A program made the translations under genes and the position numbers. This document shows, in pieces, positions 22,758-39,702 of a stretch of DNA of 41,310 nucleotides. The notes beneath the pieces were generated by a model. That model saw only the letters and a program-made list of their open reading frames with translations, made no database searches and was not told the DNA's origin. Every line of letters begins with the position of its first letter. The stretch's first letter is position 1. The DNA lies in NCBI GenBank assembly GCA_029865465.1, contig JAOUGW010000003.1:1-41310 (forward strand), in the 5' to 3' direction. Source of the stretch: Gammaproteobacteria bacterium (GTDB taxonomy: Bacteria > Pseudomonadota > Gammaproteobacteria > Steroidobacterales > Steroidobacteraceae).

Positions 22758-22800
22758 GAAGCGGGGCCGGGCTGACCGAAGTCGCACCGGCCGTCGCTTC
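22758..22800 (-). terminator. Possible terminator hairpin after bufC
   Basis: GAAGCG (22758-22763) pairs with CGCTTC (22795-22800), and GGCCGG (22765-22770) pairs with CCGGCC (22787-22792), leaving a 16-base loop and a small bulge. It overlaps the bufC stop and lies ahead of the flavodoxin-like gene. There is no T-run, so termination is uncertain. Confidence 0.35.
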
Positions 22801-23644
22801 ATTCTAGCGAGGCCGCGATCGATCGAGGGGGATGCCCGCTCTGGCAGTCGGCACGGGATCCCGTCGGATCCTCCGGTTTGCAGGTGAGCGCGGCAACGCA
22901 GCCATCGGTCAGCCATTGCTTGAGCAGGCTCGCCGCGCGCGCCGGCGCGGTTTCCGCGCCGACCCGGGTCGCCAGCCCTTCGCAGAGTTCACCGAACGTG
23001 GCGCCACGGCGGGCTGCATCGAACGCCCATGCCTCGTCCGGCTGCAGTGAGCGGAACGTCGTCGCGAGATCGCGACGCCAGACGAGCCACTCGGTCGTCG
23101 CGCTGGGGGCGTCGATCGGCGACTCTTTCGCGTCCGACAGGTCCGTGCGCCATGCCTGCACGGCGTCGGCACGGACTGCGACTCGCTGCAGGCCAGGGCA
23201 GAAGGCGATCTGCAGGCAGGGCCAGTCCTCTGGCGCGAACGAGCTTGCCGCATCGAGCCCGACGGGCTCAGCGTCGGGGCCGTCGAAGACGGTGCCGAGC
23301 GTCCATTCCCAGCGTGCGATGTCGGCCAGGACGCCGCCGCCATGCGCTTGCAAGTGATCGGCCAGTTGCCCGCCGAACCAGCGGATCGATGCATGGTGCG
23401 GTGGGTGCGCCTCGACGTAGGTCCGTGCCATTGCGTCGAACGGAGCTGCCCCCATCGCCTGCACGAGTGCCGGGAAGCTTTCGCGCAGGGCTGCGGTCAG
23501 TCGCAGTCTGTAGGCATTTGCATAAATGGCGAGCCGCCCGGGCGCGTCGAGTCCGTGCACTTGCCGCACGCCGGCGACGATCCCTGGCGTAGCGCGCAAC
23601 ACGTGCTCCTGCAGGGCGAGCTGCAGTTCGCGCAGGGCATTCAT
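22799..23644 (-). CDS. bufC: BufC/HvfC-like partner protein (DUF2063) of the bufferin-modifying enzyme
   Basis: A 281-residue protein with the DUF2063 (HvfC/BufC) N-terminal domain. [40 protein letters not shown] and FPALVQAMG are characteristic. In known bufferin systems this protein forms a complex with the DUF692 enzyme and brings the precursor peptide to it. The ATG at 23644 overlaps the bufB stop (ATGA, 23644-23641), so the two are coupled. The C-terminal 25 residues are less ordered ([18 protein letters not shown]). Known roles come from Caulobacter and methanobactin-type homologues; here the assignment rests on family and gene order. Confidence 0.85.
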
Positions 23645-24465
23645 GCGGCGGCCTGCAGCGCCTGCCGCGATATCGCGCGCGCGATGTCGAGTTCGGCGAC
23701 GAGGTCCGCCAGGTCAGGGATGTTGTCGTCGCGTTCGATCATCGTCGTGACGCTGCCAAACCGGCGCACGGCGTGCCGATACAGCTCCCAGACGGCCTCG
23801 CTCACCGGCGCATCATGGGTATCCACGACATGATTGCCGTTGTGTTCGTGTCCCGCGAGATGAATCTGGCGGATCCGCTGGCGTGGCAGAGCGTCGAGGT
23901 AGGCGCGCGGATCGAAGCCATGATTGACGCTGCTGACGTAGACGTTGTTGACGTCGAGCAGCAGTTCGCAGTCCGCAGCCTCCGCGACGGCGCGCAGGAA
24001 ATCCCACTCGGGCATCTCGGACGCAGTGAACTCAACGTAGCTCGAGACGTTCTCGAGCAGGATCCGCCGACCGAGGACATCCTGTACGCGACTGACGCGC
24101 CCGGCCACGTGGCGCAGCGTCTCCTCGGTGAATGGCAGCGGCAGCAGGTCGTGCAGGTTGCGCCCGGCCACGCCGGTCCAGCACAGGTGATCGGACACCC
24201 AGGCTGGCTCCACGCGGGCAACCAGGCGACTGACGTCGCGCAGGTAGTCGGCATCGAGGGGGTCGGTGCCGCCGATCGAGAGCGAAACACCGTGGAGTGC
24301 GACGGGGTAGTCCCCGCGTATGTGTTCCAGGTGGCGCAGCGGCGCGCCGCCTGGCACCAGGTAGTTTTCCGTGATCGCCTCGAACCAGTCGACGCGCGGC
24401 CGCTCCTGGCGAATGGCGTCGTAATGGACGGGCCGCAGTCCGAGGCCGAATCCCAGTGTATTCAT
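23641..24465 (-). CDS. bufB: BufB, DUF692-family multinuclear non-haem iron oxidase (MNIO)
   Basis: A 274-residue TIM-barrel enzyme of the DUF692 family, related to MbnB. Likely iron ligands are visible in order: His in [11 protein letters not shown], His in [10 protein letters not shown], Glu and Asn around [13 protein letters not shown], Asp-Asn in [19 protein letters not shown], His in [22 protein letters not shown], and the Glu-Arg-Asp-Asp in [11 protein letters not shown]. Such enzymes turn cysteines of precursor peptides into thiooxazole-type groups that bind copper. The ATG at 24465 follows bufA2 by 53 bases; the open frame upstream only overlaps that gene. It is the only MNIO gene in the window, yet two precursor genes are present. 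Confidence 0.92.
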
Positions 24466-24518: not shown

Positions 24519-24779
24519 TTACTTCTTCGCGCCGTCCATCGCGGCCCTGGCTTCCGTGCACTGCTGCTCGGTCAATTCGAGGAAGCCCGACCCCTTGCAC
24601 GAGTTCTGCCCTTTGCAGGCGTTGGTTGCGGTCTTGCACGCGGACTGGCCCTTGCACCCGTTCACGCCCATGCAGTGGATCTTGGCGTCCTCGGCGTGCG
24701 CCGTGCTGATTCCGACGGAGGTGAAGAGCATCGCGGCGGCCGTCGCGAGGGCGGCGCCGGTGGTACGTCTGGCTGACAT
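24519..24779 (-). CDS. bufA2: BufA2-type bufferin precursor (Cys-rich, exported)
   Basis: An 86-residue precursor. Residues 1-29 form a signal peptide ending in STAHA, so the mature part is about 57 residues in the periplasm. It contains six cysteines (36, 42, 48, 55, 61, 74) in a repeating pattern, with [10 protein letters not shown] and [10 protein letters not shown] as near copies. This is the BufA2-type bufferin signature: cysteines are modified by the BufB-BufC pair and the product binds copper. It heads the operon bufA2-bufB-bufC. ATG at 24779 has AGGAGA ahead at 8 bases. An ECF-type promoter lies 104 bases upstream and is shared with the second bufferin gene at 38119. Confidence 0.92.
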
Positions 24780-24857: not shown

Positions 24858-24876
24858 GCCCTCCGAATTGGAGGGC
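24858..24876 (-). other. 5'-leader stem-loop of bufA2 mRNA
   Basis: On the minus strand GCCCTCC and GGAGGGC (24876-24870 and 24864-24858) pair perfectly around a five-base loop, AATTC. The stem begins 7 bases after the -10-like box, that is about where transcription should start. A hairpin at the extreme 5' end could protect the message from decay or regulate it. Confidence 0.5.
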
Positions 24877-24883
24877 TCGACCG

Positions 24884-24913
24884 TTAGTCGGTGCGAACGG
24901 CAGGAAAATTACA
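24884..24913 (-). promoter_or_regulatory. ECF-type promoter of the bufA2-bufB-bufC operon
   Basis: Reading the minus strand, TGTAA (24913-24909) is followed by 18 bases and then CGACTAA (24890-24884). The same two boxes with the same spacer length precede the second bufferin gene (38024-38053), while the spacers are unrelated. The boxes look like the -35 and -10 elements of an ECF sigma factor promoter. The element lies in the gap between the glycerophosphodiesterase stop and bufA2. Confidence 0.75.
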
Positions 24914-38023: not shown

Positions 38024-38053
38024 TGTAAGAACGGGCAGTTCCGGTGCGACTAA
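38024..38053 (+). promoter_or_regulatory. ECF-type promoter of the bufA1-doxX operon
   Basis: TGTAA (38024-38028), an 18-base spacer and CGACTAA (38047-38053). The element is identical in both boxes and in spacer length to the one before bufA2 (24913-24884, minus strand). It begins 3 bases after the nadB stop and lies 65 bases ahead of the bufferin start. The ECF sigma gene at 39082-39702 is the likely reader. Confidence 0.75.
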
Positions 38054-38118: not shown

Positions 38119-38442
38119 ATGGATTCGAGCCCCAAGTTCAAGCGTCCCGCTGCCGCCGTCACGTTCGGCCTCGCGCTGGGCGCCGCACTCAGCCTGGCCG
38201 CAGTTGCCGCGAACGCCGCGGACGCCCCGGGCGCCAAGCGCGACAAGTGCTACGGCGTCGCGCTGAAAGGCAAGAACGATTGCGCCGCAGGGGCGAATTC
38301 CTGCGCCGGCACGTCGACCGCGGACTACCAGGGCGATGCCTGGAAGTACGTCCCGGCCGGCACCTGCGAAAAGACGGCATCGCCCACTTCGCCGACGGGA
38401 TTCGGCCAGCTCGCCGCGTTCAAGCCCGCGAAGAAGGGCTGA
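38119..38442 (+). CDS. bufA1: BufA1-type bufferin precursor (DUF2282)
   Basis: A 107-residue exported precursor of the DUF2282 family. Signal peptide residues 1-33 end in ANA; the mature protein has four cysteines, 44, 55, 62 and 83, in [22 protein letters not shown] and VPAGTCEK, which is the family signature. In Caulobacter bufferin 1 the two inner cysteines become thiooxazoles that bind copper and the outer two form a disulfide; the same spacing is seen here. ATG 38119 has AGGAG ahead. The usual bufB and bufC genes do not follow; instead a DoxX gene starts 5 bases after the stop. Modification may be carried out by the BufB/BufC encoded at 22799-24465. Confidence 0.92.
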
Positions 38443-38447
38443 CAGCG

Positions 38448-38927
38448 ATGCAAGCCATCCTGGCACTGTGCGAACGCATTCCACACTCGCTGATCGCGCT
38501 GCTCGGCCGGTTCTCGATCGCGGCGGTGTTCTGGAAGTCGGGACAGACCAAGATCGAGGGCTTCGCGCTCGACCTCTTCGGCGGCGAGTTCCAGCTCGGC
38601 TGGCCGCGGCTCGCCGAATCGACGGTCCCGCTGTTCCAGGAAGAGTACGCGTTGCCGCTCGTGCCGCCGGCAATCGCGGCCTACGCGGCGGCCACGGCGG
38701 AGCACGTGTTTCCAGTGCTGCTGCTGCTCGGGCTGGGTGCGCGCTTCTCGGCGCTCGCCCTGCTCGTGATGACGCTCACGATCCAGGTCTTCGTGTACCC
38801 GTCGGCCTATCCCACGCATGGCGTCTGGGCGACCGTGCTGCTGTACCTCCTGGCGCGCGGGCCCGGGCAGTACTCCGTGGATCACTGGCTCCGGTTGCGC
38901 TCGTCGTCCGCGGGGGCGCGCGCATAG
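38448..38927 (+). CDS. DoxX-family membrane protein (BufD-like)
   Basis: A 159-residue inner membrane protein with four hydrophobic segments. LIALLGRFSIAAVFWKSGQT matches the DoxX N-terminal helix and its conserved loop; EHVFPVLLLLGLGARFSALA and PTHGVWATVLLYLLARGPG follow. DoxX-type proteins are the usual last gene (bufD) of bufferin operons. It starts 5 bases after the bufA1 stop. Its last 46 bases overlap the 3' end of the anti-sigma gene on the other strand. Function is unknown beyond the association with copper buffering; redox relay has been proposed for other DoxX proteins. Confidence 0.87.
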   Translation: MQAILALCERIPHSLIALLGRFSIAAVFWKSGQTKIEGFALDLFGGEFQLGWPRLAESTVPLFQEEYALPLVPPAIAAYAAATAEHVFPVLLLLGLGARFSALALLVMTLTIQVFVYPSAYPTHGVWATVLLYLLARGPGQYSVDHWLRLRSSSAGARA

Positions 38928-39085
38928 GCGCGCATCGATTCGCGCAGGAAAGCGGCCTGCCGGCGGAAATTGCGGCACGGACGGCACATGGCGACGTGGA
39001 CGAGGACGCTCGCCTGCTCGCCGAGCGTCAGCGGACGCTCCAGCTCTTCCGACATCTTCTGCGTGGCTTCGCGACACTTCATCAT
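38882..39085 (-). CDS. Soluble zinc-finger anti-sigma factor (ZAS, zf-HC2)
   Basis: A 67-residue protein with no membrane segment. It contains Cys4, then HVAMCRPC with His30, Cys34 and Cys37, that is the HxxxCxxC zinc motif of ZAS anti-sigma factors such as RsrA and ChrR. A tail of basic residues follows (RNFRRQAAFLRESMRAYARA). It should bind and block the ECF sigma factor encoded just before it; their genes overlap (ATGA at 39085-39082). The ATG at 39085 is used; longer frames only overlap the sigma gene. The zinc-thiol site could sense oxidation or copper. The short length means it covers only the sigma-binding domain. Confidence 0.82.
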   Translation of the reverse strand: MMKCREATQKMSEELERPLTLGEQASVLVHVAMCRPCRNFRRQAAFLRESMRAYARAPADDERNRSQ

Positions 39086-39702
39086 GGTGCTGCCTCCTGC
39101 TCGCCGAACCAGTGCTGCTCCAGGCAACCGCGCAGGCGCAGCCGCGCGCGATGCAGGTTGACGTTGAGGTTGCTGGTGCTGATCCCCACCGCGCGGCAGA
39201 TTTCCGGGCTCTCGAGTTCGACGAACTCGCGCATCATGAAAACCCGTGCCTGCTGTCCGGGGAGGTGGTCGAGACAAGCCTCGAATACGCGCCAGAACTG
39301 GTCGTCCTGCAGCGCAGCGTGCGGATCGCCCCAGTCGGCGGGTGCGGCTTCCCTGGTCCAGTGCCCGTGCCGCTCGAAGAACCCGTCGGGCACCGGATCC
39401 GGTTCCGCGTCCTCGACCGGGGCCGCCGCGTAACGGGTTTGCGCCCGCAGCTGGTCCGCAATCTTGTGCCGCAGGATGCCGAAGACCCAGCTGCGATACG
39501 CCGCCTTCCCCGCGAACGAGCCCGCTCCGCGCAGCGCCCCGATGAATGCCTCCTGCACGGCGTCTTCGGCAAGGCTCGGATCCGACAGCTGCAGCGTCGC
39601 GAACCGCACCATGCGTCGCCGCAGGTCCTCGACGAACTGCGGGTCGTGCAGCGGGTTCGCCACGCTGGCCGACGCGGCCTCCGGGTCACCTCGTTCGGTC
39701 AT
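39082..39702 (-). CDS. ECF-subfamily RNA polymerase sigma factor
   Basis: A 206-residue extracytoplasmic-function sigma factor. Region 2 is at about residues 25-88 (DPSLAEDAVQEAFIGALR, then YRSWVFGILRHKIADQLR). A 40-residue linker with WTREAAPADWGDPHAAL leads to region 4 (about 140-195: HLPGQQARVFMMREFVELES, and STSNLNVNLHRARLRLRGCL). The gene is coupled to a ZAS anti-sigma and convergent with bufA1-doxX. The best guess for its target is the TGTAA-N18-CGACTAA element before both bufferin genes; I do not see that element in the 70 bases upstream of the sigma gene itself, so autoregulation is not obvious. Confidence 0.9.
   Translation of the reverse strand: MTERGDPEAASASVANPLHDPQFVEDLRRRMVRFATLQLSDPSLAEDAVQEAFIGALRGAGSFAGKAAYRSWVFGILRHKIADQLRAQTRYAAAPVEDAEPDPVPDGFFERHGHWTREAAPADWGDPHAALQDDQFWRVFEACLDHLPGQQARVFMMREFVELESPEICRAVGISTSNLNVNLHRARLRLRGCLEQHWFGEQEAAP

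Follow-up and report, generated by a model that had tools for sequence, protein, structure and literature searches.

In Caulobacter crescentus, a single ECF sigma factor, SigF, controls two unlinked operons, CC2907-2905 and CC3254-3257, whose promoters closely resemble each other, were both mapped by 5'RACE and share the motif GTAACC-N16-CGAA (PMC3511200). Each operon combines a precursor annotated as DUF2282 with its own DUF692 and DUF2063 genes (PMC3511200), the SigF-NrsF regulon is induced by copper (PMC8224329), and the anti-sigma factor NrsF has six predicted membrane segments (PMC3511200, PMC8224329). In Neisseria, SigE is encoded beside the ZAS-family anti-sigma factor MseR, in an operon under its own control, and also governs the distant gene msrA/B (PMC2893595, PMC3240639); its promoter consensus is GTMAGBWTT-N12-13-CGTCTAAH (PMC2893595). 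The copper-induced gigPABT operon of Cupriavidus metallidurans is divergent from an ECF sigma/anti-sigma pair, rpoQ-rsqA, whose anti-sigma factor is predicted to be membrane-bound; that article found nothing to show that gig transcription is initiated by RpoQ, and the passages used here mention no second operon (PMC10304878). A survey of Buf1 and Buf2 clusters describes precursor, MNIO, DUF2063 and DoxX genes, with sigma genes in Buf1 clusters and none in Buf2 clusters; many precursors had no linked MNIO gene, and modification in trans was suggested (Antoine et al., 2025; PMC12452194).

We analyzed a window of 41,310 nucleotides from a gammaproteobacterium of the family Steroidobacteraceae (contig JAOUGW010000003.1) whose predicted wiring resembles the Caulobacter system, with what would be a different switch. 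In both, one ECF sigma factor is paired with two unlinked operons, but the anti-sigma factor in the window is a 67-aa zf-HC2 protein of the ZAS type, as in Neisseria and unlike the predicted membrane proteins of Caulobacter and Cupriavidus. The distant target would be a second bufferin operon, where Neisseria SigE has msrA/B and the gig excerpt has no counterpart. The two precursors are a DUF2282 protein, BufA1, and a BufA2, whereas both Caulobacter precursors are annotated DUF2282, and the bufA1 unit lacks the DUF692 and DUF2063 genes that accompany each Caulobacter precursor. We found no support for CC2907 as a BufA2, the BufA2 model having no match in 14 control genomes, Caulobacter vibrioides included.

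The earlier note had taken control by one sigma factor to be undescribed for such a gene pair. This stands for the pair itself, as we found no description of BufA1 and BufA2 under one sigma factor in open-licence PMC full text. It goes too far for the arrangement, which is known from two unlinked such operons in Caulobacter (PMC3511200), and for the promoter, which resembles that of Neisseria SigE/MseR in its layout (PMC2893595). The novelty lies in the type of sigma factor in this role, in a BufA2 operon as predicted target and in a possible split pathway. A likely promoter can now be assigned to a sigma/anti-sigma family often found beside copper-peptide genes, and the predicted regulon is open to test: it would place a Buf2 operon under control in trans, from the sigma factor's predicted promoter, though the survey found no sigma genes in Buf2 clusters.

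The two bufferin loci and their common element

Profile matches agree with the earlier description of the genes at both loci, including an ECF sigma gene with a ZAS anti-sigma gene next to bufA1 (Table 1). The bufA2, bufB and DUF2063 genes together make a Buf2 cluster, with NF050166 and NF050167 above cut-off and a match to PF09836. The other locus has the DUF2282 precursor of a Buf1 cluster and no MNIO or DUF2063 gene in the same operon: doxX lies directly behind bufA1, and the sigma and anti-sigma genes are convergent with the pair. Five additional frames of the window had no NCBIfam match.

Table 1. Coordinates of the genes and predicted elements in the window
Feature	Position	Strand	Details
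bufC, DUF2063 partner protein	22799..23644	-	PF09836 75.8 bits
bufB, MNIO bufferin maturase	23641..24465	-	NF050167 389.3 bits, cut-off 310; PF05114 380 bits
bufA2, Buf2-type precursor	24519..24779	-	86 aa, 6 Cys; NF050166 89.9 bits, cut-off 60
Hairpin in bufA2 leader	24858..24876	-	CCCTCC/GGAGGG arms; one C-to-T change in first arm in G004
bufA2 promoter element (predicted)	24884..24913	-	-35 TGTAA 24913-24909, -10 CGACTAA 24890-24884, spacer 18
bufA1 promoter element (predicted)	38024..38053	+	TGTAA-N18-CGACTAA; starts right behind nadB stop codon 38018-38020
bufA1, DUF2282 (Buf1) precursor	38119..38442	+	107 aa; PF10048 84.7 bits, cut-off 22.4
doxX, DoxX-family membrane protein	38448..38927	+	PF07681 55.5 bits
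ZAS-type anti-sigma	38882..39085	-	67 aa, H-x3-C-x2-C (HVAMCRPC); PF13490 31.6 bits; NF052368 69.5 bits, cut-off 50
ECF sigma factor, TIGR02943 family	39082..39702	-	TIGR02943 237.8 bits, cut-off 162.2

As the earlier note had claimed, an identical TGTAA-N18-CGACTAA stands before both precursor genes. A pattern search allowing N16-20 finds exactly these two copies in the window, each directed toward its gene, 104 bases from the start codon of bufA2 and 65 from that of bufA1, and the highest count of TGTAA-N16-20-CGACTAA in 100 dinucleotide shuffles of the window was 0. We also reject a recent duplication as the origin of the two elements, again in agreement with the earlier note, because the genes differ and the spacers bear no resemblance by eye. 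The distance from GT to the -10 box is 22 bases, inside the published Neisseria SigE range, and total spacing and layout are thus similar to that promoter, while both boxes deviate at some letters, the -10 being CGACTAA here and CGTCTAA there. The Caulobacter motif is not matched: the window sites have GTAAGA or GTAATT, and CGAC. The whole 104-base leader of bufA2 folds slightly better than shuffled sequences (z -2.06), and its hairpin persists in G004 with a single C-to-T change.

The genome-wide search proposed beforehand covered the 3.36 Mb draft source genome (G000; 91% complete, 367 contigs) and found TGTAA-N16-20-CGACTA nowhere else than at the two bufferin genes. The many chance copies that the earlier note had named as grounds for rejection thus did not appear, for exact copies. 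About 0.04 copies of the 12-base composite would be expected genome-wide at fixed spacing, from the base composition of the window. Since the pattern read backwards also has two genome matches, copy number alone gives no enrichment, and the remarkable part is the placement before bufferin genes. One-mismatch N18 copies are not above background (10, including both window copies, against 23 for the control). We inspected by eye the open frames downstream of the remaining eight and recognized no bufferin gene; with fewer sites than the control, we rejected them as additional regulon members in the source genome.

We consider it very likely that both elements are promoters of the ECF sigma factor encoded beside bufA1, which would thereby control both bufferin operons. 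A common element at both operons, together with its frequent occurrence near relatives of the sigma factor elsewhere, makes one stress switch the most likely explanation for both. The ZAS protein would keep the sigma factor inactive until metal or thiol-oxidising stress frees it; the signal is probably copper, as we infer from the literature. The freed sigma factor would then transcribe the adjacent bufA1-doxX and, 13 kb away, bufA2-bufB-bufC, with predicted starts 6-8 bases after CGACTAA. Unlike the autoregulated SigE of Neisseria, the sigma gene itself has no element in its upstream region and so shows no sign of autoregulation, which we rejected on this ground.

The element beside relatives of the sigma factor

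The genus set comprises nine genomes, one 100% complete and the others 65-91%, with five of the six sigma-negative congeners being drafts of 65-86%. The sigma gene (E up to 1e-20) occurs in three of the nine (G000, G004 and G007), which are also the three in which the exact element is found. G004 carries both bufferin elements, on two contigs (bufA2 at L109, bufA1 at L099), and the comparison of orthologous upstream regions suggested in the earlier note shows them intact: all 12 box bases are kept at each (24/24), with 4 and 5 of the 18 spacer bases changed. Because G000 and G004 are close, this conservation is weak evidence (p 0.19 for bufA1, 0.018 for bufA2). In G007, the element precedes an FAD oxidoreductase gene that is followed by the sigma homologue.

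The exact element (N17-19) has 34 matches in 60 genomes, the source genome included, and 30 were examined as loci. Four are the bufferin promoters of G000 and G004 and one is the oxidoreductase-sigma locus of G007; the other 25 had no match to the window bufferin genes within 1.5 kb (tblastn, E up to 1e-3). Among these 25 are two overlapping loci (L090/L105, G040:C2) with a pair of exact elements separated by 1.1 kb; one element lies about 95 bases upstream of a match to an ECF sigma factor with 23% identity.

We also scanned genome contigs of other Pseudomonadota for the sigma factor and kept the best 80 of at least 592 stretches (295 relatives) as loci L003-L082. Fourteen of these (L003-L016) encode proteins 44-58% identical to the window sigma factor, and the other 66 reach at most 34%. 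Among these best 80, exact TGTAA-N16-19-CGACTA occurs at 4/14 closer loci and 0/66 distant ones, with 1 and 2 matches for the reversed control. A relaxed rule tolerated a single mismatch, accepted either A or T as the third base of the -10 box, took spacings of 17 or 18 and counted sites outside the sigma gene up to 1.5 kb from it. It was set once the Neisseria consensus was known and is no blind test; the strict counts are the 4/14 and 0/66 given above. Sites under this rule occur at 7/14 closer loci and at 19 of 32 loci of sigma homologues (L122-L153; 29 of the 32 non-own sigma places in our phylum sample and three from the genus search), against two of the 66 distant loci (Fisher p 3e-5 and 6e-10, respectively). 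Wrong spacings predict 0.5, 3.5 and 2.0 sites in the 14, 32 and 66 loci, where 7, 26 and 2 were seen. At position 6, which the rule does not score, 35 of the 48 sites (22 within 10 kb in the 14 loci and 26 in the 32) have a G, giving a consensus of TGTAAG.

These counts leave out eight matches that fall within sigma genes, before the anti-sigma gene, and become 23/32 and 7/14 with them; such matches apparently represent conserved region 4 coding sequence. Three examples, at L012 (5042-5069), L013 (7307-7334) and L144 (1945-1972), would mislead a motif scan.

The genes behind these sites vary. Six sites precede the sigma gene itself (L008, L009, L014, L125, L134, L138). At L012 and L013 the site stands before a DoxX gene, and the next gene encodes an EGKCG-repeat precursor. 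Genome G309 has one element before the sigma gene and, about 590 kb from there, a further one in front of an EGKCG precursor. Other sites lie before genes for TIGR03169 (SelD-type) FAD oxidoreductases (L015, L123, L135) and ArsS radical SAM proteins (L003, L127, L141), all above NCBIfam cut-offs; to our knowledge, neither has a known role in such a regulon. In Uliginosibacterium gangwonense (L010), a one-mismatch element precedes bufA1, followed by bufB, bufC, doxX and then convergent ZAS and sigma genes. The bufA1 unit of the window looks like a cassette of this type minus bufB and bufC.

This distribution bears on two other explanations. The 12-base likeness of the two upstream regions might be fortuitous, given that the reversed pattern is equally frequent in the source genome and that one-mismatch copies do not exceed background. 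Both copies nevertheless stand before bufferin genes, oriented toward them and equally spaced, both are kept in G004, and other genomes show the element associated with the sigma family. Placement and comparison across genomes led us to reject chance as highly improbable, though the genome counts do not exceed the reversed control. A dimeric regulator is also compatible with two conserved boxes at a fixed gap, so the boxes could form the site of a repressor or another DNA-binding protein instead of a sigma factor. Against this, neither box repeats the other as judged by eye, a spacing of 17 or 18 fits the published layout of the Neisseria SigE promoter, and the sites lie near sigma genes, in several loci directly before them; we regard such a regulator as very unlikely. 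The preferred reading remains recognition by the sigma factor.

BufA2 operons in genomes with and without the sigma factor

Of the 397 genomes in a phylum sample, 31 have the sigma factor (E up to 1e-40) and 35 match the BufA2 model. The two co-occur no more often than by chance, in three genomes (G000, G355, G453) where 2.7 are expected. We scanned 465 bases upstream of BufA2 genes, taking 30 of 48 BufA2 places and G004 and then 15 more stretches (one with an already scanned gene), which together cover all 35 BufA2 genomes; the sigma-negative ones number 27 in the first round and five in the last. The element is present at 3/4 BufA2 loci of sigma-positive genomes (G000, G004, G355) and in 0/32 sigma-negative genomes (p 0.0006), or at 2/3 against 0/32 if G004 is left out (p 0.005). 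The exception is G453, which has the sigma factor and a bufA2 operon and no element within the 465 bases. In G355, the sigma gene is on a different contig from both bufA2 genes, and the second, unlinked bufA2 also has a one-mismatch site, inspected later and outside the main count.

Five further BufA2 operons of sigma-negative relatives (L177, L179-L182) gave one match, at L180, of a differing type that ends in GGTCTA. When every kind of MNIO operon unlinked to the sigma gene is counted, 7/17 have a site, against 4/26 in sigma-negative genomes (p 0.06); the 26 are those MNIO operons of the relatives that entered the analysis as new loci. This is only a trend, and we did not retain general control of all unlinked MNIO operons in trans. 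A different ECF-like element, TG(T/A)AA(T/C)A-N-(A/C/G)GGTCTA, occurs at several such operons, bufferin or MNIO, in sigma-negative relatives (L180, L188, L193, L202; L190, L197) and suggests that the same genes have a second, distinct sigma factor.

The bufA2 copy in the window could be read mainly by another ECF sigma factor of the same cell, both elements still being ECF promoters. ECF boxes look alike, the GGTCTA-type element shows a related form at such operons, and at position 6 the bufA2 copy departs from most family sites in having no G; it reads TGTAATTT instead of TGTAAGAA. On the other hand, its -10 is the same CGACTAA as that of bufA1 and unlike the GGTCTA type, the exact element was found within the genus only in sigma-bearing genomes, and none of the 32 sigma-negative genomes has it at BufA2. 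We therefore think it unlikely that a different sigma factor dominates at bufA2. The earlier note's prediction of one sigma factor for two separate bufferin operons is strengthened, as a prediction, by the association with the sigma family, the retention of both sites in G004 and the 0/32 count.

A possible split pathway and the history of the two units

As the bufA1 unit has no maturase genes, BufB and BufC, if co-regulated with it, may act on BufA1 in trans. The genome contains two MNIO genes as found here, bufB (23.6-24.5 kb, on the window contig) and one on contig C252, and the C252 enzyme is a rival candidate for BufA1 maturation. The latter belongs to a third bufferin locus (L112), an operon of bufA1-like, bufB and bufC genes that lacks the element. 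A more tentative proposal, which we hold to be possible rather than probable, is that of a split pathway: the maturase-less bufA1-doxX and bufA2-bufB-bufC would have been gained as two inserts 13 kb apart, one sigma factor would synchronize the maturase with both precursors, and one MNIO/partner pair would modify both bufferin types. If BufB and BufC do mature BufA1 as well, this would be an example of a peptide pathway divided over two loci yet coordinated.

Both units look like inserts gained by the lineage, judging from their shared distribution. Within the genus, BufA2 is above cut-off in G000 and G004 only. Loss elsewhere, above all of bufA2BC, is possible too, as are genes missing from drafts. 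At the compared end of nadB, G004 is 99% identical to the source genome, and G007, the closest congener after it, has 87% nadB identity. The nadB search gave a cut copy in G001 and none in G002, and G006 has a short contig remainder after nadB with no MAPEG match. In three sigma-negative congeners (G003, G005, G008), a convergent MAPEG gene comes within about 20-75 bases after nadB, at the place that bufA1-doxX-ZAS-sigma takes in the window; G007 has another gene behind nadB, without the element. G007 also lacks bufA2BC, and its flanks are joined: the alignment to the window runs to 24963 on the GDPD side and resumes at 22831, beside an FMN-reductase/flavodoxin-like gene, with 12 bases between.
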